Assembly: GCA_009760885.1 (NCBI GenBank)
Contig: CM019707.1
Span: 35,298,145-35,362,144, forward strand
Source: Achatina immaculata
Taxonomy: Eukaryota; Mollusca; Gastropoda; Stylommatophora; Achatinidae
Direction of reading: 5' to 3'
Length of the DNA: 64,000 nucleotides
This document shows, piece after piece, positions 2,982-33,153 of the stretch (the first letter of the stretch is position 1; each line of letters begins with the position of its first letter). A program made the translations under genes and the position numbers. Below the pieces are notes generated by a model. It was not told where the DNA came from. It made no database searches and saw only the letters and a list, made by a program, of their open reading frames with translations.

Positions 2982-3652
2982 TGTAACAGAATAGCCATTC
3001 TGTTCAGAGAGTTTTTGTGTATTGCTAATAATTGTGTTGCGTAGACTACGTCATTAGGAAAGTACGTGTGCAAAGAAGTCGTTAGAAAGGTCCGTGTGAA
3101 AAAGCCGGTCGTGAGGCAGTTTTTGTGTGAACGTTGAACTGGATGGACGTGTTTGGGCGAACGAGAATGGGGTAGAGCGAGTCTTGTCGTTGTTAGGATT
3201 AGTTTAGTTTGTTTTTCTGTGTGGCTGCAGTCCTTGGTAAGCCTGTAAGTATGGTTTTTGGTATGAATAAATCACTGTAAGGTTTTCCTTGCCCATGTGG
3301 CGTAGACATTTCACGCCGGGCATTTGTTACTGTGAATTTCTGTTCAGCCTGATGGCTACATTCCCATCATCATGATTTCATCCCTCATTTTGGTCCATTA
3401 ATAAATGTGTTGTCTGATGATAAACTACACCAACTGGCTTTGTGGGAATTCTCATTGTTGACCAGTTTGTTTTGGTCGGAAGACTGCCAAGTTATGTTTA
3501 AGTTGTTGTATTCGTACTAATTTTGTGGAGTGGAAAGCCTGGGTGTCTTGTTGTATTTTCTCAGTGTATAATATAGAAAATTAGGTGATGGTTAGAACAC
3601 CAGCAACAAGAAGAAACTTATAAGTTGAATCTGTACTCCACAAGAAGAATCA
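2982..3652 (+). mobile_element. 5' LTR of Ty3/gypsy-like element
   Basis: A direct repeat of 671 bp starting TGTAACAG and ending AGAATCA is repeated at 9110-9777. It has TG...CA termini and a short hairpin at its start (AACAGAAT-AGCC-ATTCTGTT). Compared with the other LTR I see only one 3-base indel and one substitution, so the insertion is young. A polyadenylation-like AATAAA occurs in each copy. Confidence 0.9.
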
Positions 3653-4767
3653 ATCAAACCAGTAGTCTCCTTGTGAGGAGAATCCTGTTTCAGTGGTGCC
3701 GTATCAGGCCACTTGTCACGTCCAGTGTGTTTGTTTACATGTTTAACAGTTCATGCACGTTTTTTCTAGCCCACAGTTGTGTGTTGATAGTATGTTTCGT
3801 CAGTGGTTTTCAAGTTTTGGTTAGGGAATAGTATTTTTGTTAGTGTCAGAGACAGTTATCGTAGAAGTTATTCAAAGCGGCGATGATGTCCAGCCTACCC
3901 GAAAGTTTGTGTCACATCTAGTCCTGGGGCCTAGGCAGTGCAGCTACTGACGCCTACCTGTGCCTGCAATCAAGTCCAGTGAGCCTGAACCTGAACTACA
4001 ATCCGGTGAGGAACTAGAGCGGTTTGTTCCAAGCGACATTTACTTCTCAACCAGCTCCATCCGGACAGGGGAGGTAACATGACAAAATTAACTGTTTTCC
4101 ACAATTTCGGCAGATAGACAGGAGTGGACATTGATACATGGACAGTTTGGATTGTGCTCTTTATGTGTGGTGTAGGATTTCAGACATTGTAGATTCACTT
4201 ATATTTGGAATAGACATTGTAGGACATTCTTCTCCAGTGTATTAGCGGGACTTTATTGAACACTTAATTTAGTGGTGATATTTGGAACAGTCTACCAAAA
4301 ATAGCACTAAGATGGACACCACAGGGGAGCAGAAGTAAGGGTAGACCAAAAGAGACATGGAGAAGAACAACAGAAAGGATGTTGAGCAATAGAGGGCTCA
4401 CCTGGGCAAGAGCAGAAAAAAAGGCGAAAGACAGGCATTTGTGGAAAACCCTTGTGGAAGCCCCATGTGCCTTGGGCACTTAAGGTTCAGAGAGAGAGAG
4501 AGAGAGATTTGGAACAGTGCATAGACCTCTTGTTGCTTTTCATTTAACTTAGGACTTCATTGTAGTTAGTTAGTTAGTTAGTGCGTGGTATGGTATTTAA
4601 TTGAATTTCTTTTCTATGTTGATTAGTTGGATGGCATTCGTACATGACATGAATAATTGATATGCCATTGTTTTGAAATTTGTTGACATTGCTGTATATG
4701 GTGGCATTGTATTGATTCCAGTGGTATATACTAACAATAAGTAGAGTGCACTACGGATAGACGCACA
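3653..4767 (+). other. 5' leader of the LTR element
   Basis: About 1.1 kb separates the 5' LTR from gag. No open frame of note is present. A primer-binding site next to the LTR is not obvious: the sequence starts ATCAAACCAGTAGTCTCC and does not begin with the usual TGG. A truncated LINE has been inserted at 4292-4506. Confidence 0.6.
4292..4506 (+). mobile_element. 5'-truncated RTE-like LINE tail nested in the LTR-element leader
   Basis: The segment matches the 3' end of the LINE at 15128-18322, from CTACCAAAAATAGCACTAAG to the (AG)n tail. It is flanked by the 12-bp direct repeat ATTTGGAACAGT at 4280-4291 and 4507-4518, a target-site duplication. It therefore inserted into the LTR element after that lineage formed. 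Confidence 0.9.
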
Positions 4768-5670
4768 ATGGCTTCAGCTCCATCCACGTCAGATTTGCTG
4801 GGGTTATTACAAGATACCCTGTCCCAAGTCAGCAATGACTTGAGGTTTTCCCACGTCATGTCAGCTGTAGCAAAGTTCGACGGGGACCCAGCAAAATTGA
4901 AACCATGGCTGGATGAGATTAATAAGATTATGGACATGCGGAATGCTGATGTGCCCAGTAAGAAGAACTTGGTGTATTTACGCACCACAGGTTCGCTGGC
5001 AGAGTTCGTCAAACAGCGACTCCAGTTTCAAGAGACATGGGAGGAGTTCGTATCTGTTTTATTAGCACGATATTGGGTGCTGCAGACTCCTCAGGAGGCC
5101 TGGCATACGCTAGCCTCTACTCGACAGTCTCCTGGAGAGCCCATTCAAGCGCTGGCTGATCGCATCAGTGAGGCAGCTAGAGTTGCTTACTCTGAGGCGG
5201 AATGGGTAACTCCGCTGGCGCAGAGGCAAATGGTGCAGTCGTTTGTAGATGCACTACTTTCTAGAGCATTGAAATCAAAATTATTAAGAGATAAACCTGT
5301 TCTATTTTCACAGGCGGTGGACTTAGCCTTACAAGAAAATGACCTCATGAAGTCGGTGAACCTTAGTTGTAGTTCCCGACAAGCTTTCATTGCAGGTTCT
5401 CGACCGTCCGGTGAGGTGACGATACACAGAGAGTCTCCTTGTGTGGATTCGCAGAGAGTACAGTTAGTCTCTCATCAGGAGAACTCTCGACGGACGTCTT
5501 CACACTTCGAAGCGGGTAGGATAGACCACCAGAGATCGAATACCAGGAAGGCTAAACCTGCGAGTACACTACCACAAGAAACTAGATCTTGTTATAACTG
5601 TGGAAGGAGAGGTCACATAGCCCGATTTTGTAGGCAGAGTGTAAGGAAGGATCGTGTACATTTAAACTGA
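4768..5670 (+). CDS. gag: Gag of Ty3/gypsy-like LTR retrotransposon
   Basis: An open frame of 300 codons. The middle (about residues 40-200) has the helical, Trp- and Arg-containing character of retrotransposon gag capsid regions (for example W-E-E-F near a run of short helices). The C-terminal end carries one CCHC zinc knuckle, C275-x2-C278-x4-H283-x4-C288, which would bind the element RNA. The protein should form the cytoplasmic particle in which reverse transcription occurs. The frame ends in TGA directly after a TTTAAAC heptamer, and pol lies in the -1 frame, so a minority of ribosomes should shift into pol. The ATG at 4768 sits in GCACAATGG and no earlier in-frame ATG was found. The frame is intact. 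Confidence 0.88.
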   Translation: MASAPSTSDLLGLLQDTLSQVSNDLRFSHVMSAVAKFDGDPAKLKPWLDEINKIMDMRNADVPSKKNLVYLRTTGSLAEFVKQRLQFQETWEEFVSVLLARYWVLQTPQEAWHTLASTRQSPGEPIQALADRISEAARVAYSEAEWVTPLAQRQMVQSFVDALLSRALKSKLLRDKPVLFSQAVDLALQENDLMKSVNLSCSSRQAFIAGSRPSGEVTIHRESPCVDSQRVQLVSHQENSRRTSSHFEAGRIDHQRSNTRKAKPASTLPQETRSCYNCGRRGHIARFCRQSVRKDRVHLN

Positions 5671-5705
5671 CAAGTCGGCGCATGAATAGCTCCCATGTGT
5701 CCGAC
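5661..5705 (+). promoter_or_regulatory. -1 ribosomal frameshift signal between gag and pol
   Basis: TTTAAAC at 5661-5667 is in the correct register (T TTA AAC) in gag, just before the TGA at 5668. After a 6-base spacer a stem can form: GTCGG (5674-5678) with CCGAC (5701-5705), and CATG (5681-5684) with CATG (5694-5697). The pol frame is open from 5634, so gag and pol overlap by 37 bases. Heptamer, spacing and stem match the known layout of retroviral and coronaviral -1 sites. Confidence 0.85.
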
Positions 5706-8700
5706 CGTATCTTTACACCATCTAGGTCTGCCAAACAGTCTGTCTCATTTTCGCATGCGACACCACTACGCTCGGTGGCTGCGAATCCCCCGACTCCTAC
5801 TTCTGTCCTTGTTTCTATTGATACTTTTAGAATTAGAGCATTGTTAGACACAGGAGCTAGTGTCTGTCTTATCAAGGATTCTGTATATAGATCCTTACGT
5901 TCTGCTCCTAAGCTCTTGCCCGCTACAATTACTCTGCAGACTGTTACTGCAGCTTCCATGAGAGTACTTGGCAGAGTTTACCTACCTATCTCTATTGCTG
6001 GTGTCACTGTTTCTCATTGTTTTTATGTGGTTCGCAACATGAACCGTTCCGCCATTCTGGGGCGTGATTTTTTGTCTCGTTCTGGTGCTGTCATCGATTA
6101 CAATTCTAATACACTTAACATACATAACAAGAAGATTCCTTTAGAGTTAGATGCACACATTGCCTCTATTCTTCGTGTCCAGCGTTCTTCTCTTCTTTCT
6201 TCACGTTCCGTCAATCTTATTCCTCTTAAACTGAAAGCCCAACCATATTTTCCATCTGGCAATTCTTTTATGGTTCAGGGTATTGAGACACCATTCTTAC
6301 TGTCCCAACCGGAGATAGAGTTGGTAGACTCAGTATGTGAGCTCCACACTAATCGCTATCCCGTGTTGACAGTAATTAATCATTCTAGTAAACACATCGA
6401 GCTCAGACGTGGATGTGTTTTAGGAAAATTGACACCATTCACGGAGTCAGTTGACTCTATCCAGCAAGCTTCTGGTACTGAGGAGACAACATCTGACAGT
6501 CGTTCTGAGACTATCGTTCGACAGGTTCAGTGCCCTGAAGTGCACAAGGACATAATATCCAGGTTGTTGACACAGAACAAGGATGTCTTTGCCTTGACTG
6601 ATTCCGAGATTTCGCATACCTCGACAGTGCAGATGGAGATTGATACAGGCGATCATCCGCCAATCTCCAGGAAACCCTACCGCACTCCGCTGGCGAGTAG
6701 AGAGGTGATAGAGAGGGCCGTCGAGAATATGTTGCGTGACGGAATAATTTCTCGCACGATCTCAGAGTGGTCATCACCAGTTGTCTTGGTGACTAAGAAA
6801 GATGGTACCCATCGTTTCTGCTGCGACTACCGTGCACTCAATGCGGTGACCCGTTCATTGTCATATCCATTGCCACGCATTGAGGACATCCTGAGCACGA
6901 TCGGAAAAGCCAAATTTTTCAGCACTTTGGATGCTCGTTGTGGCTTTTGGTGTATTCCCTTGTCCAAGGACGCTCAGCAGAAGTCAGCTTTTAGCTGTCA
7001 TCTGGGTTCTTTCTGTTTTAATTACATGAGCTTTGGTTTAAAAGGGGCACCATCTACCTTTGTCGCACTCATGGACGCAGTATTACAGGGCTTAGGCAAG
7101 TTTGCACAAGCCTATATTGACGATATACTGGTGTTCACTGATGGAACGATCGAGGACCATGTTCGCGATCTTCGGGCGGTATTCGACCGATTGCGCGAGC
7201 ACCAGGTCAAGCTCAAACCATCCAAATGTCACTTTGCGGCCTCTGAGACAAAGTATCTCGGGTATGTCATCAGCCAGTCAGGCATATCTCCTGATCCTGA
7301 GAAGGTCAGAGCCATTGCCGACATGCCGTCTCCTTTGAATGTGAAGGAGGTGCGCTCTTTTTTGGGCACGTGCAGTTACTATCGACGTTTCATTCCCCAC
7401 TTTTCGGAGATTGTGGCTCCCATAGTGGACCTCACCAAGAAGGGTCATCGGTTCAAATGGTCTCCAGTCTGTCAAATGGCGTTCGAGTCTTTGAAGGATC
7501 GCCTTGCGAAAGTACCGCTTCTCTCGCATCCTGACTTGCATAAGCCACTTACATTGTATACAGATGCTTCCAATGTTGCGGTTGGAGCCTGTTTGGTGCA
7601 GACAGCTTCCTCTTCTGATGGGCTCTCAGTTGAAGAGCCCTTATATTTCCTTTCGCAGAAGCTGTCGCGCTCTCAGACTAAGTGGTCTACTTTCGAGAGA
7701 GAAGCGTATGCCGTCCATTACGCCAGGCAGAAGTTGAGATATTTTCTGGCGAATAGACACTTCTCTGTGAAGACTGACCATAGACCCTTGGTGGACGCAT
7801 TTATCAGCAAACAGGAGATGTCAGACGTCAAGTTGCAGAGGTGGTTTGCTAACCTCCGCACCCTGGACCTTCAGATGTTCTTTCATCCAGGTGCGCGGGA
7901 GACAACGTTGGCAAGTTTCGATCGTGCCACTTCTGTACCAGTACCAGTTCACGTTCTTGACGGGGACGTCCCTCAGTCACAAGGATCTGAGACATATGTT
8001 GTAAAGTCAGTGAGCGTTGTGGGGTCCTATTCACAAGCAGAGCCCCCGCTTGTAGTAGATTGCTCTGTGCAGACTGACTTGCCGTGTCCCTGTCAGCAGA
8101 AAGAGAGAGTAGAGAGGGCGACTAATACATCGTGTCCTATGGTTCAGGACGTCGCCATTAATGTATCGTGGCCTAGTGGGACCTTTCAGAGGCAGTATCA
8201 GCAAGATCGTTGTAGATCTTACCTGCCACGTCCCATTAGACAGAGATTTTCTCTTCCGCCGCCTCCTCGTTTTGTTCCCAGGCTCCCACCATGGTACCTG
8301 AAGGAAACCCAGCAGAGAGTGGTCCCCAGAGCTCCTCCCTCAGACCACTATATGGAGGTGGATGCTTCCGCCTCAGCAGTTCCTATGTCGGTGGATGACT
8401 TGCGACCTCGGCATAGGCGGAAGAAACGGAAGAGAGCCGATATCTGCCATCAGTCTCAGAAGGAACACTGTCCTCACAGTGAAGATTATTTCCCTGAAGA
8501 GACTTCACCTAGTGCCGATTGCGATACGGAGATTGATCAGTTGTACGTCTCCGATCGTAAGCTCGTTGTGGCAATAGGGCAGATAATGGGTACCGTGGAC
8601 TTAGAAACGTTCACGATGAAAGATCTCCATAAAGCACTTATGGAAAAGTTCCCACTATTGGAACTAGATGGCAGGAAGCAGTTCATAGAACGTGTTGTGA

Positions 8701-8735
8701 TCAACATATTAACTGCGATTCCTTCTACTGAATAG
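5682..8735 (+). CDS. pol: Pol of an LTR retrotransposon: protease, RT, RNase H, no integrase, DEK_C-like C-terminus
   Basis: 1017 codons counted from the ATG at 5682; translation probably begins in gag by frameshifting, so this ATG is only a reference point. The aspartic protease shows LLDTGAS (DTGA at residues 56-59). Reverse transcriptase spans about 320-520, with FSTLDARCGFW and the catalytic YIDD at 478-481. RNase H follows, with LYTDAS (Asp 628), FEREAYAVHYA and TDHRPLVDAF. Ty3/gypsy pol normally continues with an HHCC/DDE integrase. Here, after HPGARETTLASFDRAT (about 735-750), there is no zinc-binding or DDE domain. Instead there are about 150 residues of low-complexity, Pro- and Arg-rich linker, a basic stretch RPRHRRKKRKR (about 908-918) and a C-terminal domain at 958-1010 that resembles the DEK C-terminal domain (VDLETFTMKDL, RKQFIERVV). 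The frame is intact and the LTRs nearly identical, so this form was recently active or mobilised in trans. Confidence 0.9.
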   Translation: MNSSHVSDRIFTPSRSAKQSVSFSHATPLRSVAANPPTPTSVLVSIDTFRIRALLDTGASVCLIKDSVYRSLRSAPKLLPATITLQTVTAASMRVLGRVYLPISIAGVTVSHCFYVVRNMNRSAILGRDFLSRSGAVIDYNSNTLNIHNKKIPLELDAHIASILRVQRSSLLSSRSVNLIPLKLKAQPYFPSGNSFMVQGIETPFLLSQPEIELVDSVCELHTNRYPVLTVINHSSKHIELRRGCVLGKLTPFTESVDSIQQASGTEETTSDSRSETIVRQVQCPEVHKDIISRLLTQNKDVFALTDSEISHTSTVQMEIDTGDHPPISRKPYRTPLASREVIERAVENMLRDGIISRTISEWSSPVVLVTKKDGTHRFCCDYRALNAVTRSLSYPLPRIEDILSTIGKAKFFSTLDARCGFWCIPLSKDAQQKSAFSCHLGSFCFNYMSFGLKGAPSTFVALMDAVLQGLGKFAQAYIDDILVFTDGTIEDHVRDLRAVFDRLREHQVKLKPSKCHFAASETKYLGYVISQSGISPDPEKVRAIADMPSPLNVKEVRSFLGTCSYYRRFIPHFSEIVAPIVDLTKKGHRFKWSPVCQMAFESLKDRLAKVPLLSHPDLHKPLTLYTDASNVAVGACLVQTASSSDGLSVEEPLYFLSQKLSRSQTKWSTFEREAYAVHYARQKLRYFLANRHFSVKTDHRPLVDAFISKQEMSDVKLQRWFANLRTLDLQMFFHPGARETTLASFDRATSVPVPVHVLDGDVPQSQGSETYVVKSVSVVGSYSQAEPPLVVDCSVQTDLPCPCQQKERVERATNTSCPMVQDVAINVSWPSGTFQRQYQQDRCRSYLPRPIRQRFSLPPPPRFVPRLPPWYLKETQQRVVPRAPPSDHYMEVDASASAVPMSVDDLRPRHRRKKRKRADICHQSQKEHCPHSEDYFPEETSPSADCDTEIDQLYVSDRKLVVAIGQIMGTVDLETFTMKDLHKALMEKFPLLELDGRKQFIERVVINILTAIPSTE

Positions 8736-9109
8736 TTTGAAATCTATAGGGATTTCTAAAGAAAAGCACAATAGACACTAGTTGGGTAGTGTTCTTCGAA
8801 AAAGGAGTTCATCCTTTGCTTCTATCCTATTTCTATGGCAGTAGAAATAGATGGTGTAGTTCACAGAACTCAGTATTAAAAATGTTGTAAATATATGTAT
8901 TTATGTTTGCACCACAAATGTTTAACGTACTTAATTTGTACAAATTGTGGGTGCATGAAGTTTTTTTTGTAGCTGCATATTCAGCTTTAAATTCATTGTT
9001 ATCGCTCACAGTTCGTGAGAGTTTTCTGTGCAAGTTCGCAATTTTTTTTTTTTTTGGTTGGAGATATTTGATGGCCAAATATCTACCTTTAGGGGGTGGG
9101 GAGATATTC
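8736..9109 (+). other. 3' untranslated part of the LTR element with polypurine tract
   Basis: No integrase or other frame fits here: only 374 bases separate the pol stop from the 3' LTR. A G-rich purine tract, AGGGGGTGGGGAGA, lies at 9091-9104, just before the LTR start. It is the likely plus-strand primer. Confidence 0.75.
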
Positions 9110-9777
9110 TGTAACAGAATAGCCATTCTGTTCAGAGAGTTTTTGTGTATTGCTAATAATTGTGTTGCGTAGACTACGTCATTAGGAAAGTACGTGTGCA
9201 AAGAAGTCGTTAGAAAGGTCCGTGTGAAAAAGCCGGTCGTGAGGCAGTTTTTGTGTGAACGTTGAACTGGATGGACGTGTTTGGGCGAACGAGAATGGGG
9301 TAGAGCGAGTCTTGTCGTTGTTAGGATTAGTTTAGTTTGTTTTTCTGTGTGGCTGCAGTCCTTGGTAAGCCTGTAAGTATGGTTTTTGGTATGAATAAAT
9401 CACTGTAAGGTTTTCCTTGCCCATGTGGCGTAGACATTTCACGCCGGGCATTTGTTACTGTGAATTTCTGTTCAGCCTGATGGCTACATTCCCATCATCA
9501 TGATTTCATCCCTCATTTTGGTCCATTAATAAATGTGTTGTCTGATGATAAACTACACCAACTGGCTTTGTGGGAATTCTCATTGTTGACCAGTTTGTTT
9601 TGGTCGGAAGACTGCCAAGTTATGTTTAAGTTGTTGTATTCGTACTAATTTTGTGGAGTGGAAAGCCTGGGTGTCTTGTATTTTCTCAGTGTATAATATA
9701 GAAAATTAGGTGAAGGTTAGAACACCAGCAACAAGAAGAAACTTATAAGTTGAATCTGTACTCCACAAGAAGAATCA
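9110..9777 (+). mobile_element. 3' LTR of Ty3/gypsy-like element
   Basis: 668 bp, same termini as the 5' LTR, and different from it only by the missing TTG and one T/A change that I can see. Directly after it, ATCCCAGATAATTCTC continues a SINE body. The sequence before the 5' LTR ends CCGTGTTC, so the element splits GTGTTC-GA-ATCCC, the B box of the SINE. Confidence 0.9.
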
Positions 9778-9905
9778 ATCCCAGATAATTCTCTTGTGAT
9801 TTTTCTTTCTCTCACGTCTCACTAAAGTGCTTTGTCTACGATTTTTTCCAGGTCTAATCCTCCAAAATTTGTTCTCTTACTTTACCGTACAAAATCCTCG
9901 AAGTT
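9778..9905 (+). mobile_element. SINE body split from its tRNA head by the LTR element
   Basis: Sequence from ATCCCAGATAATTCTC through CTAAAGTGCTTTGTCTACG to TTCTCTTACTTTACC matches the - strand of 2521-2645 at roughly 85% by eye. The head of this copy is the CCTACAGGAGTCCGTGTTC sequence that ends at 2981. Confidence 0.65.
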
Positions 9906-12270: not shown

Positions 12271-12395
12271 AACTGAAGTAAATGAATAAATTATGATTTT
12301 AAAAGAGTTCCTACCCTGTGAGATGTGGTTTACAGCAACTTTAGCAGCTAAATTGTTTTTAGTAGGGGAATAATTAGCAGAACTACATATATTAT

Positions 12396-12755
12396 AGCAG
12401 TTAAAACATCGCTAATGCAAGTATGACTGTTTCTAGCAGTTAAAACATCGCTAATGCAAGTATGACTGTTTCTAGCAGTTAAAACATCGCTAATGCAAGT
12501 ATGACTGTTTCTAGCAGTTAAAACATCGCTAATGCAAGTATGACTGTTTCTAGCAGTTAAAACATCGGTAATGCAAGTATGACTGTTTCTAGCAGTTAAA
12601 ACATCGCTAATGCAAGTATGACTGTTTCTAGCAGTTAAAATATAAGCGTTTAGTTGTTGATTTAGTTAAAATATAATTCATAGAATATATTTGTGACAGT
12701 AGTTAAAATATAATTCACAGAATATGTTGTCACAGCAGTTAAAATATAATCAGTG
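12396..12755. repeat. Minisatellite, 39-bp unit, with a related flank
   Basis: Six almost identical 39-bp copies (AGCAGTTAAAACATCGCTAA plus ATGACTGTTTCT) fill 12396-12640. They are followed by two or three looser units around AGTTAAAATATAATTCACAG to about 12755. Confidence 0.9.
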
Positions 12756-13018
12756 CAACTATAGTATTTGTAGGAGGTGAAATGTTAGCGAAACAGTTGT
12801 CATTTCATGAAACTGAAATACGAAAAATGAAAAGAAATATTTTTAAAAGCATATTTGGACAATATTGTTAGTACAAATGCTGTTTTTAATCACATTAGTA
12901 AGTCCTGTGAGGATGTTTATAAATATGTAATAGAAACAAATGACTAGTGAGTTAAATCACAAAATGAAAGATATCTTTCTTGTTTTTTATTTGAAACAAC
13001 TGTTTGATGATGGTGGTG

Positions 13019-13222
13019 CAGTAGTATTTGTACTGTGTTAAACGATGTAATATTTGTACTGTGTTAAATGAAGTAGTATTTGTATTGTGTTAAATGATGT
13101 AGTATTTGTACTGTGTTAGATAACCTAGTATTTGTACTGTGTTAGATAATCTAGTATTTGTACTGTGTTAAATGATCTAGTATTTGTACCATATTAAATG
13201 ATCTAGTATTTGTGCTGTTTTA
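13019..13222. repeat. Minisatellite, 26-bp unit
   Basis: About eight copies of GTAGTATTTGTACTGTGTTA plus AATGAT, with scattered substitutions. Confidence 0.85.
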
Positions 13223-13344
13223 AATATAGAAAGTTGAGTGGTGAAATTAAATGTATGTGTGTGTTATATGTGTGCGAGTCTGCATGGGTGTGTATGTGTC
13301 TGTGACACACATCTGTGTTAAAAAATACAGAACAAGTCCAGTGG

Positions 13345-13719
13345 AGTGTGAACTAAACACTAAACTGTAAGAGTGTTGGCATCGGTGAGTGAACTAAACA
13401 CTAAACTGTAAGAGTGTTGGCATCGGTGAGTGAACTAAATACTAAACTGTAAGTGTGTTGGCATCGGTGAGTGAACTAAACACTAAACTGTAAGTGTGTT
13501 GGCATCGGTGAGTGAACTAAACACTAAACTGTAAGAGTGTTGGCATCGTTGAGTGAACTAAACACTAAACTGTAAGAGTGTTGGCATCGTTGAGTGAACT
13601 AAACACTAAACTGTAAGAGTGTTGGCATCGTTGAGTGAACTAAACACTAAACTGTAAGAGTGTTGGCATCGTTGAGTGAACTAAACACTAAACTGTAAGA
13701 GTGTTGGCATCGTTGAGTG
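13345..13719. repeat. Minisatellite, 41-bp unit, next to the methyltransferase 5' exon
   Basis: Nine copies of a unit containing GAACTAAACACTAAACTG and AGAGTGTTGGCATCG. The first copies carry CGGTGAG and the later ones CGTTGAG, so variants are clustered as expected from local unit duplication. Confidence 0.9.
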
Positions 13720-13813
13720 AAAGGTACCATGAGCTCCAACAATATCTCAGTGGGCTATTGCTGCAGTACTGATATCTCTAGTGTCTGTTTGCTCTTCTCT
13801 CTATTCTGTACAG

Positions 13814-14161
13814 GGATCCAAGTAAGTTCCACTGACAGGGATCTAGCACGAGACAGCCAGGATGAGACGACCGAGATTCTTGCATATCAGCACTCTGGTA
13901 AAACTGAAGCAAGTAGTCGCCGTTCTCATCATCGCTGGCCTCTTCCTGGTGCTGCTCCCAAACACTGGGATCTACGACGTCACTTTGTCGGGTCTCAGCA
14001 GCGTCTTCTCTTTGCTGAGAAGTGGATGGGATGTCAAACTAGACAAGTTTAAGTCTAGAATACATAGCCCGACCTCCGGAGACTACCGTTTAGTTAACCC
14101 ACAGATGACCGATTTTTCTAGGGGGCAGTGTAAAGTTATTGAAGGTTTACTGCACGATAAG
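13814..14161 (+). CDS. FkbM-like gene, first coding exon
   Basis: A pyrimidine-rich tract ending CTGTACAG precedes 13814, so a 5'UTR exon lies further upstream. ATG at 13862 opens 100 codons that end at the donor AAG|GTATGT (14162). Residues 17-34 ([15 protein letters not shown] core) form the only membrane segment. The end, [13 protein letters not shown], resembles the helix that precedes the SAM domain in this family. Confidence 0.7.
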
Positions 14162-17100
14162 GTATGTTTGTTCTTTGTTTAACATCTACACATTCCTCGC
14201 TCTCTTTTGGCTCTGTCAATAAATTCTCTTGTTGCATCATACTGACCCTTCTCTTAGCCTTCATAACCTAATAATAAATCATTTCACGCAAACGCTCTCT
14301 TAATCTGTATTTATATACTCGTGGTTATTACACGAAGAAATCCACGCACAAACATACCTGGAAGATAACATGCGAACTCATCCATGCATACAAAAATGAA
14401 GTCTGCTCTCTGTGAATACATTACAGTATAGGTTCGGAATTTTACGTGCGCTGACCTGGTCCTTTCTGCAACGATGTTTCTCAAATCTCAGAGTGACGGA
14501 CAACGTTCAGCTTAGTGCATGAAACAGTCACTTTTCTGTTCTTTACAAAAAAATCCGTAACATCCACTCTTGAAACTACAGAAAAACTGAGTCCGTAACA
14601 ATAAATTTACAGAAATTCTGGTGCAGCCTAAGTGTACTCATTCATTCATTAGCATGTCCCTTGCGGAACTTTGTCTCTCTAACAGCTCTCTCCTAAAGGC
14701 CTCTCATTTGTGAGCAAGATGCCCATTTACAGATCATCTACAACGTCTTGTTGGGTATATATGTAAACCTAATGGAACTTAAAACTTATATATGTTACAT
14801 CACTTTCAGTGTAACAGATTTGCTAATTTATTTTAGAAATTTGTAAAAAAAAAACAACAACAAAAAATATGTGAACATCAAAGTGCTGTAGGTACAAAAA
14901 ACATGTGAACATCAAAGTGCTGTAGGTACAAAAAACATGTGAACATCAAAGTGCTGTAGGTACAAAAAACATGTGAACATCAAAGTGCTGTAGGTACAAA
15001 AAACATGTGAACATCAAAGTGCTGTAGGTACAAAAAACATGTGAACATCAAAGTGCTGTAGGTACAAAAAACAAGTGAACATCAAAGTGCTGTAGGTACC
15101 AAAAACATGTGAGCATCAAAGTGCTGTCCCCCGTGTGGTACCCGGGATCTGCAAAGAATAAGATCACTGTACCTTACCAGGCATGATCGTAAAAGGCGAC
15201 TAAGGAGGGTTCGGCATAGGGCCAGCAACCCTATCTGGTAAAAAAAACTATCAGACTGCTACAGAAACGGAAGCAAGGGAAAAACCAAATGCAGGTGGAA
15301 GGAGAAATGCTTATAAGGAAATTGAGCCCATGAAGGTTGTGGATGAAAGCCAGCCACTGGAAGTCCCCAGCCCGACTGCAGACCTCCTGGAACCTAAACA
15401 CAAGATGCAGATAGGCAGCTGGAATGTAAGAACACTTAACCAGACTGGAAAACTAGCACAAACCATCAAGGAAATGCACAGATACAAACTAGACTTACTA
15501 GGAATACAAGAATCAAGATGGACAGGACAAGGCAGAAGGAAATTAACAACACAGCACACAGAAGATACAATAATATGGTCAGGTAAAGAAGATATTCATG
15601 AAGGAGGAGTAGCATTGATTATAACAAAAGAAGCATCAAGAGCATTGCTGAAATGGACCCCAATAAATGAGAGATTATTATATGCATGGTTCAACTCAAG
15701 ATTCACGAAGCTGTCTATTATAGTTTGTTATGCACCAACAGAAGCAGCTGAAGAGGAATTAAAAGATTATTACAACAGCCTCCAAGCCACAGTAGAAACA
15801 ATACCCAAGCATGATATGCTACTCATCTTGGGCGACTTCAGTGCAAAAGTAGGTGAAGGAAATGAAGATAGAAGAAGAATCATGGGAAGAGAAGGAATTG
15901 GAGAAATAAATGAAAATGGAGAAAGACTGTGCAGTTTCTGTGAAGAAAACATGATGACCATCGGAGGGACAATTTTCCAACATAAAAACATCCATAAAGT
16001 GACTTGGAGGTCCCCAGATAAAATCACAGAAAACCAAATCGATCACATACTAATAAACAAGAAGTGGAAACGGTCACTACAAGATGTGCGAGCAAGGAAA
16101 GAAGCAGATATAGGAAGTGATCACAACTTTCTGGTAGCAAAAATAAAACTAAAATTAAGAGAAGCCAAAATCGGAGAACACAGAAAGATACGTTTTGATA
16201 CAAGAAAACTGAAAGACCAGCAAACAAGAAATGAATTCTCAGTAGTACTTAAGAACCGCTTCAGTGTCCTACAAGACGAAGCAGAAATGTCCATATTAGA
16301 GTTCAGTAAAACACTACAGGAAACAGCAAAAGAGGTGCTGGGATATCGGAAACGGAGAAAAGAGGAATGGATACGCAAGACCACATGGGAAAAGGTAGAG
16401 CAAAGAAAAGAAATCAAGGAAAAATTACTGAACACCAAATCACAATGGCTTAAAGAACAAATTTTAAGTAATTATGCACAAAAAGACAAAGAAGTGAAGG
16501 AATCATGCCGTCAAGATAAACGTCAATACTATGACAACTTAGCAGAAGCAGCAGAGAAAGCAGCATATACAAATGATATGAAAACCATATATAAAATCAC
16601 AAAGCAGATGACAGGTAACTTCAACACAAGATGTGAAAGTGCAGTAAGGACACAAAATGGACAACTGGTCAGTGGATAAAGAGAAAAAAATGAAAGATGG
16701 AGGGAACACTTTAACACCCTACTAAACAGAACACAAGCAGCACAAACAATAGACATACCTGAAGCAAAAACGGAACTAAACATCAATACAGGACCAATAA
16801 CAATAAATGAAGTAAAGGAGGCAATAAAGAAGCTAAAATCAGACAGGGCACCAGGTGAAGATGAAGTGACTGCTGAGATGTTGAAGGCAGAAGAAACAGA
16901 AACACCAAAACAACTTTGCCGGATATTACAACAAATTTGGGATCTAGAAAAAGCCCCAGAGGAGTGGAAAACTGGGTTTATAGTAAAACTACGCAAAGAT
17001 GGGTGACCTCAGAGACTGCGGGAACTGGAGAGGCATTACCCTACTGCCACTCACCAGTAAAGTATTTTGCAGAATAATCATCAACAGAATTGTACCAACA

Positions 17101-20100
17101 CTTGAGGAAAAACTTCGGAAAGAGCAGGCAGGATTTAGGAAAGGAAGATCGTGCATAGACTACATATCTGTACTTAGACAAATATTAGAACAGGAAAATG
17201 AGTGGCATAGCACAACATATGCATTATTCATAGATTTTGAGAAAGCCTTTGACAGTGTCAACAGAGATGCAATGTGGAAAATCCTAAGATGGCATGGCCT
17301 CCCCCATAAGATAGTAAATGTAATCAAAGCCCTATATGAGGGTTTTCAGTGCAAAGTGATCTGTGGAGAACATACCTCCAGCAGCTTTAGGGTACAAACA
17401 GGAGTGAAACAGGGATGTGTACTATCATCAACATTATTTATCTTGGCAGTAGATTGGTTAATGAAGGAGGCAACATCAGACAAACGCAGAGGATTACAAT
17501 GGACCCCTGACACAGTGCTGGAGGACCTTGACTTTGCGGACGACATTTGTCTATTATCAAGCAGTCACAAAGATATGCAAGATAAAATAAACAAGCTAAC
17601 TCAGAATGCAAACAACATAGGACTAAAGATCAACGTAGGAAAGACAAAGTTAATGAAGCAAAATGTGAACAACAGAAATGTAGTCAGAGTAGATAACAAG
17701 TTAGTGGAGGAGGTCAACGAATTTGTATACCTTGGCAGTAGAGTAGTAGAAAATGGAGACAGCACAGAGGACATCAACAGCAGACTTACTAGAGCAAACC
17801 AGGCTTTTGCAATGCTGCAGACTATATGGAAATAAAAAAACTAAGCATAAATATGAAAATCAGGATATTTAAGAGTAATGTTCTAAGTGTACTACTCTAT
17901 GGAAATGAATGCTGGAAAATCACCAAAACCATAGAAAACAAGATGAATTCTTTCCAGACTAAATGTTTATGAAGAATTAGAAAAATATTTTGGCCAAACA
18001 CCATAAGAAACAAACACCATCTTATTGGCAGAAATGCAGATGAAACCACTGAAAACAATTATTGAGGGAAGACGCTGGCGATGGTTATGTGCTCCGAATG
18101 ACTGACAACTCACTACCAAAAATAGCACTAAGATGGACACCACAGGGGAACATAAGTAAGGGTAGACCAAAAGAGACATGGAGAAGAACAACAGAAAGGA
18201 TGTTGAGCAATAGAGGGCTCACCTGGGCAAGAGCAGAAAAAAGGCGAAGGACAGGCATTTGTGGAAAACCCTTGCGGAAGCCCCATGTGCCCTGGGCACT
18301 TAAGGTTCAGAGAGAGAGAGAGATCAAAGTGCTGTAGGTAAAAAAACATATGAACATCAAAGTGCTGTAGGTACAAAAAACATGTGAACATCAAAGTGCT
18401 GTAGGTACAAAAAACGTGTGAACATCAAAGTGCTGTAGGTACCAAATGAAGAAAATCTTACGTCATTACCACTAACTAACACATGAGAGAATGATAATAG
18501 TGCATTTATATACACATTAAGCTTGTTTGTTCTAAATATGCTGCACTTTATTTATATACACATTAAGCTTGTTTGTTCTAAATATGCTGCACTTTATTTA
18601 TATACATATTAAGCTTGTTTGTTCTAAATATGCCGCACTTTATTTATATACACATTAAGCTTGTTTGTTCTAAATATGCTGCACTTTATTTATATACAAA
18701 TTAAGCTTGTTTGTTCTAAATATGCTGCACTTTATTTATATACACATTAAGCTTGTTTTTAATTGTCATTTTCCTCCATACAGAAGAACGGTTTTTTTGT
18801 GGACATAGGGGCTGGCGATGGTGAGACAGATTCTGTGAGTTTATACTTTGAGAGGGAGAAGAAGTGGAGTGGAGTCCTAGTGGAGGCTAACAGGGACAAA
18901 CATCTGGCAGCCATCAGCAAGAACAGGCAGTCGCAGATGTGGAACTTCAGAATAAGACTGGATAACGAGGTAAAATTATGAAATCGTAAAATGTGAAACG
19001 ATCACAAGGCACCGACTTCTGCCATGCCAAAGTCGTCCTTGCACTAGACTCTTACTCAGAGGTCAGCGGTAATGTCCATCCGGGGGTGCCCCAGTCACCC
19101 AGCTGTAGAAATAGGTACCTGACTCCTACTGGAACTGAGTAAGTAGAAGGGGCCAGAGATGATGCTGTTCACATCACCCTCTTGTTTGCCGGCTGGTCAA
19201 GAAAAAAAAACTGCGCTAAAGCCATATCCGCCGGGTGCTTCTTTGACATAATATGGCTGCTTTAACTGTGCTATGTAGTTTTAAAACAAAACATTTATGA
19301 TTTCCACAACATAATCTTCATTATAGCTGAGAAACACATAAATGTCTTTGAATGTAAATGCTACAGATGAGTTCTTCAAATATCATGGACATAAAAAAGC
19401 ACTAAGATGGACACCACAGGGGAACATAAGTAAGGGTAGACCAAAAGAGACATGGAGAAGAACAACAGAAAGGATGTTGAGCAATAGAGGGCTCACCTGG
19501 GCAAGAGCAGAAAAAAGGCGAAGGACAGGCATTTGTGGAAAACCCTTGCGGAAGCCCCATGTGCCCTGGGCACTTAAGGTTCAGAGAGAGAGAGAGATCA
19601 AAGTGCTGTAGGTACAAAAAACATATGAACATCAAAGTGCTGTAGGTACAAAAAACATGTGAACATCAAAGTGCTGTAGGTACAAAAAACATGTGAACAT
19701 CAAAGTGCTGTAGGTACAAAAAACATGTGAACATCAAAGTGCTGTAGGTACAAAAAACGTGTGAACATCAAAGTGCTGTAGGTACAAAAAAACGTGTGAA
19801 CATCAAAGTGCTGTAGGTACAAAAAACATGTGAACATCAAAGTGCTGTAGGTACAAAAAACATGTGAACATCAAAGTGCTGTAGGTACAAAAAACATGTG
19901 AACATCAAAGTGCTGTAGGTACAAAAAAACATGTGAACATCAAAGTGCTGTAGGTACAAAAAACGTGTGAACATCAAAGTGCTGTAGGTACCAAATGAAG
20001 AAAATCTTACGTCATTACCACTAACTAACACATGAGAGAATGATAATAGTGCATTTATATACACATTAAGCTTGTTTGTTCTAAATATGCTGCACTTTAT

Positions 20101-23800: not shown

Positions 23801-24825
23801 CATCATCATCAGGTGCCGTGCCGACTGGCGTTGGCTATTATGCTTCTCCAGATTACACGATCCTTCATGCAGGCCATCAGTTCAGTTGGTGATCTCCTCT
23901 CACACCATCCCGCCAGACTGTCCAGTATCATTTCTCTTGGTCTTCCTCTTGATCTTCTTCCTTCTATTTTTCCTGTTGTTATAATATTTTCAATGCCCCC
24001 TCTTCTCATTGCATGTCCTATGAAAGTACACTGTCTCTCTCTTATCTTTTTGACAAGATTTTTTTGTCTCTCCAGCTCTTCTCATACATTCTTCATTAGT
24101 TATTTTTGCTGTCCAGGGGATTCGCAACATTCTTTTAATAAACCACATTTCTGCTGCTTCCAATGATTTTTGTGCAGACTTGCCTATTGTCCATGATTCA
24201 CTTCCATATAACAAAATAGGTTCAATATAGCATTTTAGGACTCGTTTTCTAACATTCATTGATAAGGATGTGTTGGATAATATGTTTCTCATTCTCTGAA
24301 ATGCAGTCTTTGCTTGGCCTATTCTGTTCCTAATTTCTGTTCTGCATTTCCCATCTGAAGTTATTACTGCTCCAAGGTATTTGAATTTCTGCACCTGCTT
24401 TAGAATAGTTCCGTTTAATTTAATACTGCATGCTGGTGGATTCTGTTTCTTAGATATAACCATAGTCTCTGTCTTTTTGATGTTCAAAGTAAGGCCTTTC
24501 TGTTCACTTTCTTTGGCGACTTTATCCAAGAGATTTTGCAGGTCTTGTTGGTTCTCAGCTATCAGTACTGTGTCATCAGCATACTGAAGGTTGTTAATAT
24601 TGTATCCTCCAATTTTTATGCCTGGTTCTGTGATGATTGTTCTTAGAATATTCTCACTATACAGAGAAAAAAGGTCTGGAGATAGTACACATCCTTGTCG
24701 CACCCCTTGTTTTATAGGTTGATATTTTCCAATTCTATTTTCAACTCGAATTGCTGCTTCTTGCTGCCAGTATAGATGTTTTACAATCCTCAGGTCTTTG
24801 CCGTCTATATTGATGTCTTCAAGCA

Positions 24826-24873
<48 letters not shown>

Positions 24874-26390
24874 AATGCAAGATGAAACTATATGAAATAT
24901 AAGTATACAGATTACATGAAAAAATTACATTCACAAATATAGGATAATGAACTACATAAGAGGTAACTGATCTAACAAGACAGTATGCACACACACGTGT
25001 ACACGTGTACATACACACACACGCACACACACACACACAAATACATTTTCAATGGAGTTCTTCTGACATTCCACTCGTGCACATTTACCAAGATAATTTC
25101 TAACAAGATACAAGATCTAACAAATTATGTTTTGAACGATGTTCTTTTAGAACAGAACTCGGTGGCTGATGAGTCGTAGTATGAGAGGCCATTAGACTTT
25201 CTAAGGAGGCATATAGTTACAAGCCAGTAAACACTGAAAAAGGCTTGAGTTAAAGAAGAAGTAGAAGAAGAAGAAAAAGAAGAAGAAGGCTGTATGATGT
25301 GGATTAGCACCATTTATGTTCATAAGCCCATTTTTTTTTGTCAAAAAGAGAAAGTGCTGGGTTACTGTTACATGAGAAAAGTTACATGGAAATATTACAT
25401 AATGAGAATTAATATTCACAGGACTAATGGCAGAACAGAACATTTATTTGGAATTTTAAGTTCATTTCCTATCAGAAGGGTACATAATGGGAAAAAAAAG
25501 AGAGAAGACCAAGGCGAAGACATCGCGTATGATCTGCAAATGGATGTATCAGCAGCAAGCCATCTTGCTTGTTCACAACAGAGAGGCCTACAGGAGAGCT
25601 GTTAGGGAGGCAATGTTCTGCAAGGGACATGCAAATGAGTGAATGAATGAATTCCTATCATTATTGTTTTTGTTCTTTCACTGTTTAGCTCTAACCCTCT
25701 TCTGCTGCTCTGTTAGGTTGTCACTAGTTTCTGCACACTGCTCTCCAATCCTGCTGTCAGCACAGCATCATCATCATCTATATATCTCAGGTTGCTGAAA
25801 ATGTGACCTCTCACTTTCATTCTTCATAAATTTTCAACATCTTTCATGATGAATTCAGATTCACATGAATAAATTTTCCTGTTACAGCCATATAGATCTT
25901 TTTTTTCCCTCGAAGTTCTCACAAATCTACAATGAAAATGCTGAGTGTATAATAATTTTGTTAACAACAATAATAATTTTGTTAACAACAATCCACATAT
26001 TTACATTTAAATACACCAGAAATGTACCACCTATTATACCCATAATCTATACATTTTTAAGATTAATAATCATAAACTACCTTCTTCTGTCCACAGACAA
26101 CTCCTGATTCAGAAGGAGATATTAGACCAGATCAACTGCTGGAGATGATTAATCACAATTTTATAGATCTCCTAATTGTAAATATGCACGATTTAGAGCT
26201 GGACTTTATCAGACAGATTGATTTTGCCAAGTACCACATCAAAGTCATCACTATAGAGCTACATAGTGATGTCAGTTCTAAGAAGTACATGGACATCACT
26301 GACCTGCTAATTTCGCATGGGTTTATTATGGCTCATCATTTTCTGAATCATATTGTGAGAAAGAGGGATATGATATATGTTAAATCTTAG
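13814..26390 (+). CDS. FkbM-family SAM-dependent methyltransferase-like gene (gene span)
   Basis: Exons seen: 13814-14161 (start ATG 13862), 18784-18969, a duplicate at 20287-20472, and 26097-26390 (stop TAG). All visible junctions are phase 0. The protein starts with a short basic tail and one hydrophobic segment (about residues 17-34), a signal anchor, suggesting a Golgi or secretory-membrane protein with a luminal enzyme domain. The next exon carries [13 protein letters not shown], the SAM-binding motif of FkbM methyltransferases, and GVLVEAN, the acidic ribose-binding strand. The last exon aligns with the C-terminal half of the family (IKVITIEL), but the usual core DVEG/E motif reads [10 protein letters not shown] middle segment usual in the family was not found, so one or more exons are unseen or the gene is decayed. 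The substrate cannot be told from sequence. Confidence 0.72.
14162..14865. other. Methyltransferase intron 1, 5' part
   Basis: Mostly unassigned. At 14643-14735 a short - strand LINE tail is present (ATTCATTCATT, then GCATGTCCCTTGCGGAACTT), a fragment of the (ATTC)n-tailed LINE family also seen at 29678, 42893 and 60923. Confidence 0.65.
14866..15127. repeat. 34-bp minisatellite, left part
   Basis: About 7-8 copies of a unit containing CATGTGAACATCAAAGTGCT and GTACAAAAAA. The array is cut at ATCAAAGTGCTGT (15115-15127) by the LINE insertion and resumes at 18323. Confidence 0.92.
15330..16679 (+). pseudogene. LINE endonuclease domain (APE-type)
   Basis: 449 codons. The first 230 residues form an apurinic-endonuclease-like domain: GSWNVRTL (metal-binding Asn), IQESRWTG (catalytic Glu), [15 protein letters not shown], and SDHNFL with the catalytic Asp-His pair. 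A long, Lys-rich helical linker follows. It would nick target DNA to prime reverse transcription. The frame stops at TAA 16677, but the same frame reads on as a normal LINE sequence ([11 protein letters not shown]), so this stop is a mutation and not the true end. Confidence 0.85.
16680..17835 (+). pseudogene. LINE reverse transcriptase domain
   Basis: From 16680 to about 16998 the frame of the endonuclease continues ([15 protein letters not shown]). It then shifts by one base at the AAAGATGGGTGACC site into the frame of 16999-17835. The RT shows [45 protein letters not shown] and the active-site variant FADD. After TAA 17833 the post-RT domain continues in broken frames ([13 protein letters not shown], then [16 protein letters not shown] near 18150-18200). 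Confidence 0.85.
18323..18442. repeat. 34-bp minisatellite, unit-1 copy
   Basis: About 3.5 units, continuing the array that was cut by the LINE at 15127. Confidence 0.92.
18495..18760. repeat. 46-bp minisatellite, unit-1 copy
   Basis: Six copies of a unit with TATACACATTAAGCTTGTTT and CTAAATATGCTGCAC, ending only about 20 bases before the exon acceptor. Confidence 0.9.
18784..18969 (+). CDS. FkbM-like gene, SAM-binding exon (copy 1)
   Basis: Acceptor TTTTCCTCCATACAG ends at 18783 and donor GAG|GTAAAA starts at 18970. The exon has 186 bases, 62 codons, phase 0 on both sides. It contains [16 protein letters not shown] (SAM-binding loop), WSGVLVEAN (strand with the acidic residue) and ISKNRQSQ. 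Deletion or duplication of this exon would not change the downstream frame. Confidence 0.8.
19596..19992. repeat. 34-bp minisatellite, unit-2 copy
   Basis: About 11-12 units, three times longer than the unit-1 array although the flanks are nearly identical. Confidence 0.92.
20045..20258. repeat. 46-bp minisatellite, unit-2 copy
   Basis: Same unit as 18495-18760 with about one copy fewer. Confidence 0.9.
20287..20472 (+). CDS. FkbM-like gene, SAM-binding exon (copy 2)
   Basis: Encodes the same 62 residues as 18784-18969, with the same acceptor and donor. Inclusion of both copies would keep frame but duplicate the SAM-binding motif in one chain. More likely they are mutually exclusive, or one copy is an allelic or assembly duplicate. 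Confidence 0.75.
20830..21215 (+). mobile_element. 5'-truncated LINE tail with (ATGA)n end
   Basis: From AAACACATAAATGTC through GGGAAGAAAGAGAGGAAG to GGACATGCAAATGAATGAATG, this is the + strand equivalent of the LINE at 29678-30624. It encodes decayed pieces of the ORF2 C-terminus ([15 protein letters not shown] basic stretch). It is part of the right edge of the tandem duplication. Confidence 0.8.
21470..21648. repeat. Minisatellite, 26-bp unit
   Basis: Seven copies of AAGATATCCCACTGTAATGA plus CTT. A single related fragment recurs at 23260-23280. Confidence 0.85.
21649..22324. other. Methyltransferase intron sequence, unassigned
   Basis: No exon with convincing splice sites was found here although the protein family predicts missing residues. 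The 65-codon frame at 22019 has no recognisable motif. Confidence 0.45.
22325..23060. repeat. Minisatellite, about 55-58-bp unit
   Basis: Thirteen copies of a unit with TCTCTTTACGTCTACTCTAC and GACCTCCTTCCTTGCCGGTC. GGGACCTCC and GGACCTCC variants alternate. Frames open through it are products of the repeat. Confidence 0.9.
23061..23635. other. Intron sequence with (TC)n microsatellite
   Basis: A (CT)n run at about 23521-23561 and a GAAGAAGAAG run just before it are the only notable features. Confidence 0.6.
23636..23700 (-). mobile_element. Short 3'-end fragment of an (ATTC)n-tailed LINE
   Basis: On the - strand it reads GCCCAATTCTTCACCC then AAAATAAAGATCATTCATTC. The same end is present on the + strand at 37945-38025 and in more diverged form at 34530-34575. 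Confidence 0.65.
23757..23800. repeat. (CA)n/(TA)n microsatellite
   Basis: Alternating CA then TA runs, joined directly to the 3' end of the LINE at 23801. A longer (TA)n run borders the other end at 24831-24870. Confidence 0.9.
23801..24830 (-). pseudogene. 5'-truncated LINE with RT C-terminal half
   Basis: On the - strand, 24830 to about 23990 encodes the last part of an RT and the post-RT domain: [13 protein letters not shown], the catalytic YADD ([12 protein letters not shown]), [24 protein letters not shown] and [12 protein letters not shown]. After a frame change it ends with [16 protein letters not shown] and NASRHGT-stop near 23810. Endonuclease and RT fingers are missing. The element is bordered by TA repeats on both sides, consistent with insertion into a (TA)n tract. 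It lies antisense in the methyltransferase intron. Confidence 0.88.
24831..24870. repeat. (TA)n microsatellite
   Basis: About 20 TA units at the truncated 5' end of the LINE. Confidence 0.95.
24871..25475. other. Intron sequence, with (CA)n at 25010-25040
   Basis: CA-rich stretch at 24985-25040 and a GAAGAAGAAG stretch at 25255-25287. No exon recognised. Confidence 0.55.
25476..25650 (+). mobile_element. Short LINE tail with (ATGA)n end
   Basis: From GAAGGGTACATAATGGG to GGACATGCAAATGAGTGAATG, this is the same 3' end as 20830-21215, further truncated. Confidence 0.75.
26097..26390 (+). CDS. FkbM-like gene, last coding exon
   Basis: Acceptor CTTCTTCTGTCCACAG ends at 26096. The phase-0 frame runs 97 codons to TAG at 26388-26390. 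It contains [23 protein letters not shown] and a final MIYVKS, which parallel the family's C-terminal strands. The position where family members usually have a DVEG motif has no Gly, and the first Asp is replaced. Either this is a diverged branch or the gene is losing activity. The frame itself is clean. Confidence 0.7.
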   Translation, partial: TTPDSEGDIRPDQLLEMINHNFIDLLIVNMHDLELDFIRQIDFAKYHIKVITIELHSDVSSKKYMDITDLLISHGFIMAHHFLNHIVRKRDMIYVKS

Positions 26391-32059: not shown

Positions 32060-32524
32060 GAAATCTGCCTAGCCTCGACAACAAACGGACATGTGTTGCA
32101 TCTACGTCGTCCGCAACCCTTCCCTAAGTCCACGTTATCAGTTCAGGAGGGTTTCACCTGTACTTCACGCAATTTTATTTATGCTATTATGTGCAAACAT
32201 TGTGGTATGAAGTACATAGGGGAGACAGGTTTACGCTTAGGAGATCGATTTCGCCAGCATCTTAATGATATTTCTAAGAGGGCCTGGACACCCGTGGCTA
32301 AACATTTTTGCCTTAGCAACCACAGGAGAAAACAGGACATTTCTATTAGTGCGATCTGCTCTTGTTCTGCTGATGTACGATCTCGGAGGGTCCTAGAACA
32401 GCGCCTTATTTTCCAGGCTGGATGTCTCCACCCAGTTGGAATAACAATGTCTTCAGCTTTCTGTAACTTCTTTAGTTTTCCCCTCCCCCCCCCCTTTTTT
32501 TTTACTCTACTTTCTTTCTTCTAA
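32060..32524 (+). pseudogene. GIY-YIG endonuclease domain, copy 1 (Penelope-like)
   Basis: The frame is open across the unit; its first ATG is at 32093. The domain begins at FIYAIMCKHCGMKYIGETG, which holds the GIY- and YIG-equivalent strands and a Cys pair. Then come GDRFRQHL (catalytic Arg), VAKHFCLSNH and VLEQRLIFQ (metal-binding Glu). Such a domain follows the RT in Penelope-like elements and nicks DNA for target-primed synthesis. Here it stands without its RT and ends in low-complexity SFPLPPPFFF. It is therefore a fragment, although no stop interrupts the domain. Confidence 0.82.
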
Positions 32525-32682
32525 CTACCTGTCCCTACCGCCACCCTCTTTTCTTCTCTGGCAAAATATTGGCGTTTATAGGGTCTTGTCCTATTCACCA
32601 GTTTCACATTTTCTCCCTGCAGGTGTGTATGTTCTTCATTCATTATCTCTCCGCTTTCCCTTTTGCCTCCCCCCCCCCCCCG

Positions 32683-33153
32683 GCAGGTGAAATCTGCCTA
32701 GCCTCGACAACAAACGGACATGTGTTGCACCTACGTCGTCCGCAACCCTTCCCTAAGTCCACGTTATCAGTTCACGAGGGTTTCACCTGTACTTCACGCA
32801 ATTTTATTTATGCTATTATGTGCAAACATTGTGGTATGAAGTACATAGGGGAGACAGGTTTACGCTTAGGAGATCGATTTCGCCAGCATCTTAATGATAT
32901 TTCTAAGAGGGCCTGGACACCCGTGGCTAAACATTTTTGCCTTAGCAACCACAGGAGAAAACAGGGCATTTCTATTAGTGCGATCTGCTCTTGTTCTGCT
33001 GATGTACGATCTCGGAGGGTCCTAGAACAGCGCCTTATCTTCCAGGCTGGATGTCTCCACCCAGTTGGAATAACAATGTCTTCAGCTTTCTGTAACTTCT
33101 TTAGTTTTCCACTCCCCCCCCCCTTTTTTTTTACTCTACTTTCTTTCTTCTAA
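32683..33153 (+). pseudogene. GIY-YIG endonuclease domain, copy 2 (Penelope-like)
   Basis: Same domain as copy 1 with only a few substitutions (for example Q to H near the start and D to G in RRKQGISIS). An open frame enters it from 32569 through the C-rich linker. Copy 2 probably arose by tandem duplication of copy 1. Confidence 0.82.

Follow-up and report, generated by a model that had tools for sequence, protein, structure and literature searches.

A high-copy Ty3/gypsy-type element of Achatina immaculata has a DEK_C domain in place of integrase and probably relies on an integrase-bearing twin

Long terminal repeat (LTR) retrotransposons are considered unable to spread without integrase, and in chromoviruses a chromodomain stands at the C-terminus of the integrase. 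BARE-2 of barley is, like the element described here, a conserved non-autonomous partner (of BARE-1), but it is defective in Gag and not in integrase; maize Bs1 is an LTR element with a foreign coding segment, and we know of no DEK_C domain in it. The RLG_Cereba clade carries a chromodomain on its integrase, and wheat RLG_Sabrina and RLG_WHAM are integrase-less LTR elements whose likely autonomous partner is RLG_Wilma (in the parts of PMC9744471 used here). Plant genes of the HadGAG2 type join a Copia gag to DEK_C, PC4 and a zinc knuckle (in the parts of PMC9784723 used here). Here we describe a Ty3/gypsy-type LTR retrotransposon in 64,000 nucleotides of Achatina immaculata DNA (contig CM019707.1, positions 35,298,145 to 35,362,144; this whole stretch is the window). 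It is a derived, non-autonomous form, because integrase is absent after RNase H, and its pol ends in a DEK_C domain instead; we call it the DEK form. Probably it is supplied with integrase in trans by a closely matching element of the same genome, the twin (locus L040).

The wheat elements resemble the DEK form in being integrase-less LTR elements for which mobilisation by a partner has been proposed, for wheat on the grounds that LTR ends, primer binding site (PBS) and age agree, as far as the cited parts of PMC9744471 go. In contrast, RLG_Sabrina and RLG_WHAM are described in those parts as lacking coding for both reverse transcriptase (RT) and integrase and as having almost no sequence in common with their partner, whereas the DEK form codes for gag and RT, has a backbone about 97% identical to the twin and has another domain where integrase was. 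The HadGAG2 type is similar in that DEK_C is fused to a retroelement protein, but these are, in the cited parts of PMC9784723, domesticated plant genes with a Copia gag and not a mobile gypsy pol. Chromodomain elements also end a gypsy pol with a chromatin-binding domain; there the domain is added to integrase, whereas in the DEK form it takes the place of integrase. For Ty3/gypsy elements at large we compared the best 120 of 3865 protein matches. Integrase-bearing relatives among these have the same order of protease, RT and RNase H and are 33-53% identical over RT-RNase H (50-52% for the mollusc rows, from Mytilus edulis, Patella caerulea, Haliotis asinina and Bradybaena similaris). DEK_C is found in 0 of the 120 listed Pfam domain sets, and 86 of the 118 rows of the protein tree have the integrase zinc-finger motif downstream of RNase H, many of the others being cut short. 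In open-licence full texts we found no retrotransposon with DEK_C in place of integrase, although one may have been described elsewhere, and a search of such texts for integrase-less gypsy LTR elements returned caulimovirus titles only.

The window element has the features of a gypsy element: TG..CA LTR ends, a PBS, a polypurine tract (PPT) and the order protease - RT - RNase H. The chromodomain that marks a chromovirus was not found in the window pol by any model up to E 10. The parts of the element are as follows (UTR, untranslated region).

2982..3692, + strand: 5' LTR, TGTAACAG...CTGTTTCA, 711 bp, with borders from comparison with 20 other copies
3693..3710, + strand: PBS region GTGGTGCCGTATCAGG.., directly 3' of the LTR and alike in the integrase-bearing copy on C20
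4768..5670, + strand: gag, 300 aa, with a single CCHC knuckle close to the C-terminal end (PF00098, E 7.3e-5)
5634..8735, + strand: pol frame, first ATG at 5682, stop at 8733-8735
5661..5667, + strand: slippery heptamer TTTAAAC, in register for a -1 frameshift from gag into pol
5674-5704: small stem near the slippery heptamer
5808..6092, + strand: aspartyl protease (PF13975, E 1.8e-8; PF00077, E 1e-4)
6792..7271, + strand: RT with YIDD (PF00078, E 3.9e-31)
7533..7859, + strand: RNase H (PF17917, E 9.6e-26), straddling the 5' cassette junction
7817..7818, + strand: 5' junction between common backbone and DEK cassette, just 3' of codons ..AFISKQE, from comparison with L040
7818..8756, + strand: DEK cassette, 939 bp, replacing the 1847-bp integrase segment of L040 (L040 1075-2921)
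8403..8435, + strand: basic stretch RPRHRRKKRKR, pol residues 908-918
8547..8711, + strand: DEK_C domain (PF08766)
8757..9109, + strand: 3' UTR and PPT, the PPT AGGGGGTGGGG at about 9091-9101; common to the integrase-bearing twin
9110..9780, + strand: 3' LTR, without about 37 bp of its 3' end

The cassette consists of a diverged RNase H end, then a Pro/Arg-rich basic linker, then DEK_C. When we compared the window element with 20 further copies, the TTTAAAC heptamer was found in 18 of the 21 and a 309-codon gag frame in 16. The LTR ends of two copies, L014 and L010, deviate from the usual form, and the window copy is without its 3' LTR end, which breaks off about 37 bp early and abuts repeat DNA. 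Copies of an inverted repeat lie at 2536-2649 and 9777-9886, one of them beginning at this cut-off; they contain what we take to be a tRNA B box-like sequence and may be a short interspersed element. The 3' end of the LTR is variable in L022, L024 and L054, and some copies have a second PBS-like stretch, GTGGCGCCGTGAT, preceding a final TTCA or TTTA.

In the window pol, no Pfam integrase model was found up to E 10. We also trained an integrase-family hidden Markov model (HMM) on 74 integrases taken from the nearest relatives; across the six frames of the 21 copies and the whole window it gave at most 4.7 bits, and the same model matches 111 of the 120 relatives (its own 74 rows included) with up to 539 bits. 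The last conserved Asp of RNase H, a catalytic residue found within ADxLSR in relatives, is absent in 21 of 21 rows, where the sequence reads LASFDR (LASFDG in L010), and the twin has ADLLSR at this point. At the pol C-terminus, a Pfam scan matched DEK_C over positions 1-54 of 54 (PF08766, E 9.1e-11, 42.0 bits against a cut-off of 24.8), and this piece also has a sequence match to the solved human DEK structure (E 1.4e-4). A structural model of the domain, built with 8 near-identical sequences, has a predicted local distance difference test score (pLDDT) of 81, and the DEK structure 1q1v is its top match in both structural comparisons, although the Foldseek E-value is weak (0.18), the chain being very short. 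A single-sequence model of RNase H, linker and DEK_C together (pLDDT 40) is too poor to judge the linker. Judged by sequence and predicted structure, then, the C-terminal domain is a genuine DEK_C with a DEK-like helical fold. The preliminary description of this DNA had read pol as protease, RT and RNase H with no integrase and a DEK_C-like end, and both parts of that reading hold up: Pfam and the family HMM agree on the first, Pfam and the structural comparisons on the second. We would guess that DEK_C lets Gag-Pol or the pre-integration complex bind DNA or chromatin, favouring the cDNA of the DEK form itself.

The DEK form is a young, high-copy family and not one broken copy. Allowing up to 3 mismatches, we counted the DEK junction at 156 places in the host genome (reversed-pattern control, 0); a cassette-internal pattern occurs at 180, and mismatches may account for the gap. 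A DEK_C profile search found at least 150 places (150 of 359 candidates scored, all 150 above the cut-off), and, in a separate search of the host genome with the linker, a stop-free frame of at least 1000 aa is present in 44 of the 150 cassette copies listed, by a hand count that leaves out two long rows with an in-frame stop. The 20 further copies were picked from DEK_C matches with frames of about 1000 aa or more, so that the intact pol in 21 of 21 rows is an effect of this selection and not a result. In 18 of the 20 fetched copies the LTR pairs are 98.97-100% identical, with five at 100% (L015 and L018 were measured over 516 and 583 bp only), in line with the earlier view that this is a young element and no old wreck; L025 is without most of its 5' part. 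Exact 4-bp target-site duplications (TSDs) surround 18 of the 20 (15 called by script; L015, L018 and L024 by eye from the same output), and nearly all have TG...CA ends. The exact duplications indicate insertion as by integrase. DEK junctions lie 2.6 kb apart at C18:15403198 and 15405814 of the host genome, and cassettes lie 4.7 kb apart at C29:17062857 and 17067586. DEK copies at C13:53074541 and C6:14579137 have frames of 1331-1332 codons, the length of gag and pol fused in one frame.

To compare with forms that keep integrase, we searched the host genome with a related integrase and scored 150 of 1260 candidates. Several integrase-bearing families are present among those scored, and one locus, L040, is the same element with integrase (Pfam Integrase_H2C2, E 1.2e-15; rve, E 5.8e-12), so that a relative of the kind the preliminary description had looked to lies in the element's own genome. 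L040 is 96.5% identical to the window over 6744-7867 on the RT side and 96.4% identical from 8757 through the 3' UTR and PPT into the LTR start. Between the junctions at 7817/7818 and 8756/8757, the DEK form has 939 bp and the twin has 1847 bp coding integrase; the twin pol ends in ..KEKHNRH, and near-identical DNA is 3' UTR in the DEK form. By this alignment the cassette is a replacement of the integrase segment and not a deletion, and the DEK junction recurs 156 times, so the case in which all relatives keep integrase and this copy merely lost it, named earlier as one that would overturn the idea, fails. The twin junction occurs at 127 places in the host genome (up to 3 mismatches; reversed-pattern control, 0). 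Three integrase junctions lie about 6.9 kb apart at C19:5128675, 5135551 and 5142457 and are perhaps elements with common LTRs.

We compared the two forms over LTR, 5' UTR, RT, 3' UTR and PPT, taking the criteria for a non-autonomous partner from the cited parts of PMC9744471. LTR ends and PBS are conserved: the LTR start is common to L040 and DEK copies, and both LTR ends and the PBS are common to L053/L054 and DEK copies. The twin copy on C20 has a PBS and PPT like those of the DEK form, and over 1365 bp of LTR and 5' UTR, which include the promoter region, it is 95.3% identical to DEK copy L022 and 91.3% identical to the window; L010 differs here. The LTR pair of this copy, the single twin copy dated, is 99.2% identical, against 98.97-100% in 18 of 20 DEK copies, and its TSD, GAGT, was identified by eye, the 3' LTR end being irregular. 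In a further family with integrase 49-50% identical to the query (C20:31433614 and others), frames reach 1667-2007 aa.

To see how the forms are related, we built a backbone tree from 1074 columns of RT-RNase H upstream of the junction in 21 DEK and 13 integrase-bearing copies. Form switches 7 times on the tree (6-7 times in the 5-95% bootstrap range), and well-supported branches force 3 or more of these switches; the forms are separated in 0 of 200 bootstrap trees, and a single DEK clade is rejected (approximately unbiased test, p 1.7e-5). Since the forms are not separated, sequence appears to have been exchanged between them. Some DEK copies combine a close RT with a distant LTR (L005, 97.8% against 73%; L008, 96.7% against 70%), and L010 carries a different LTR. 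A single clade of the 20 main DEK copies (2 changes) appeared on a tree reaching 50 bp beyond the junction and was set aside, as it is gone with pre-junction columns only. The exchange would be explained most simply by template switching between co-packaged RNAs.

The cassette is under purifying selection. The ratio of nonsynonymous to synonymous rates (dN/dS) in the cassette is 0.26-0.50 between the window and 10 other copies; all 10 values lie below neutral (p 1.4e-4 to 0.031), and they are not independent because the window is part of every comparison; in RT it is 0.09-0.19 (five copies tested), and the DEK_C part alone varies too little for a selection test. On a protein tree of 118 related proteins and two of the element (the best 120 matches less two removed by a length filter), the element sits on a long branch nested among integrase-bearing gypsy elements, and therefore the loss of integrase is derived. 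The nearest row, P0004, was considered as an integrase-less relative and rejected: it comes from a contig of 3510 bases and stops just short of the integrase start, and its long branch may draw it to the window element.

As for where the cassette came from, a search of 695 length-matched candidate proteins with residues 760-1017 found no relative at E 0.01, and one of 20 candidates with just the DEK_C end found none at E 10. In a linker search of the host genome (150 of 787 candidates scored), every scored match was 87% or more identical to the window; a more distant donor or a host DEK gene would therefore lie beyond the reach of that search. The RNase H end of the cassette can be aligned with that of the twin yet is distinct from it, and the donor was therefore probably another gypsy element. 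The linker was also compared with the tail that comes after integrase in relatives (M-x-V-D-x-V followed by a basic run), and its identification as such a tail was dropped, L040 having no tail of this kind. With a 17-row tail HMM the window ranks third among itself and 999 shuffles, for a motif picked after being seen; this likeness hints at a related gypsy pol as the donor.

Taken together, these data suggest that the DEK form is probably an RT-coding, integrase-less partner that is given integrase in trans by the twin, and that the two forms exchange sequence; integrase from the twin accounts jointly for the TSDs, the common ends, the young LTRs and the exchange of backbones. RNAs of both forms would be packaged in the same particles, and each form would make Gag, plus Gag-Pol via the putative -1 frameshift. 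The twin integrase would recognise the same LTR ends, insert the DEK form and leave 4-bp duplications, and template switching between co-packaged RNAs would keep reshuffling the backbone and the 3' pol module. Several observations weigh against this reading. The frameshift stretch folds no better than shuffled sequences (z 0.61). On the backbone tree, form labels are more clustered than random (7 changes against a shuffled mean of 10.6, with a count this low in 5 of 500 shuffles), support for most inner branches is weak, and the bootstrap had not converged; gene conversion between genomic copies is a possible cause of the mixing. TSD and LTR age for the twin come from one copy with an irregular 3' LTR end. 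L010 is older (LTR pair 95.8% identical), blastn aligns none of the first 648 bp of its LTR with the twin, and TSDs were not found for L010 and L025 among the 20 fetched copies. Other integrase-bearing families, 73% and 49-50% identical to the query integrase, are also in the genome and could supply integrase.

That integrase comes in trans mainly from one of these other families, both of which have long open frames, is improbable: TGTAACAG is found in 0 of 11 loci of the 73% family and near matches (L029-L039; the loci extend at most about 1.5 kb past the integrase match and may miss the LTR), whereas the twin and the DEK form have LTR ends, PBS and PPT in common and exchange sequence with each other. 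The preliminary description had offered two routes for an element without integrase, borrowing it in trans or reaching chromatin another way. Borrowing is the better supported because the genome also contains an integrase-bearing twin with the same LTR ends and PBS, and sequence is exchanged between the two forms. The other route, in which no integrase is used, DEK_C tethers the DNA to chromatin and host repair joins the ends, would fit the lack of integrase, the presence of DEK_C and selection on the cassette, but we find it very hard to reconcile with the exact 4-bp TSDs around 18 of the 20 fetched copies, which are a signature of integrase, with TG...CA ends in nearly all, and with an abundant integrase-bearing twin with the same ends. 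Hardly credible, too, is a dead or dying derivative with an extra reading frame by chance or decay: the last conserved RNase H Asp is missing and the window copy has a truncated 3' LTR, but there are 156 junctions, frames of 1000 aa or longer in 44 of the 150 cassette copies listed, identical LTRs in five fetched copies and a cassette dN/dS of at most 0.5.

A further account, which we consider unlikely though less so than these, is a mutualism in which DEK_C serves both forms, for example by anchoring the particles or cDNA that they share to chromatin, and in which selection maintains the two modules within a single recombining population. Each form is abundant, the backbone tree does not separate them, 18 of 20 fetched DEK copies are young and the cassette is conserved; however, there is no sign of a gain to the twin, and a parasite acting in cis would give the same picture. 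We also put forward, as a speculative proposal, a two-component retrotransposon with integrase on one RNA and DEK_C at the same place of Gag-Pol on the other, the two being co-packaged, complementing each other and exchanging backbones by template switching. If this were true, the pair would behave as a segmented element, with integration chemistry and chromatin contact on separate RNAs.

Other repeats are present elsewhere in the window. Pieces of a non-LTR retrotransposon in different frames lie at 15330-17835, with an endonuclease (PF03372, in 15330-16676) and an RT (PF00078, in 16999-17832), and an RT fragment on the minus strand at 23990-25036 (PF00078, E 2.9e-20) is non-LTR by its look. 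Two very similar adjacent frames at 32093-32524 and 32569-33153, of which only the second was scanned and has a GIY-YIG domain (E 1.3e-5), are perhaps Penelope-like endonuclease ends. A minisatellite cluster with units of 39, 26, 41 and 34 bp occupies 12353-15161.

The DEK form is thus a family that codes for gag, protease and RT with a chromatin-binding domain in place of integrase, and by junction counts (156 against 127) it is at least as numerous as its twin. The pair is a naturally occurring system, defined at the sequence level, in which to study the sharing of integrase between genomes, the ability of a tether domain to function separately from integrase, and the origin of new retroelements by exchange of modules.

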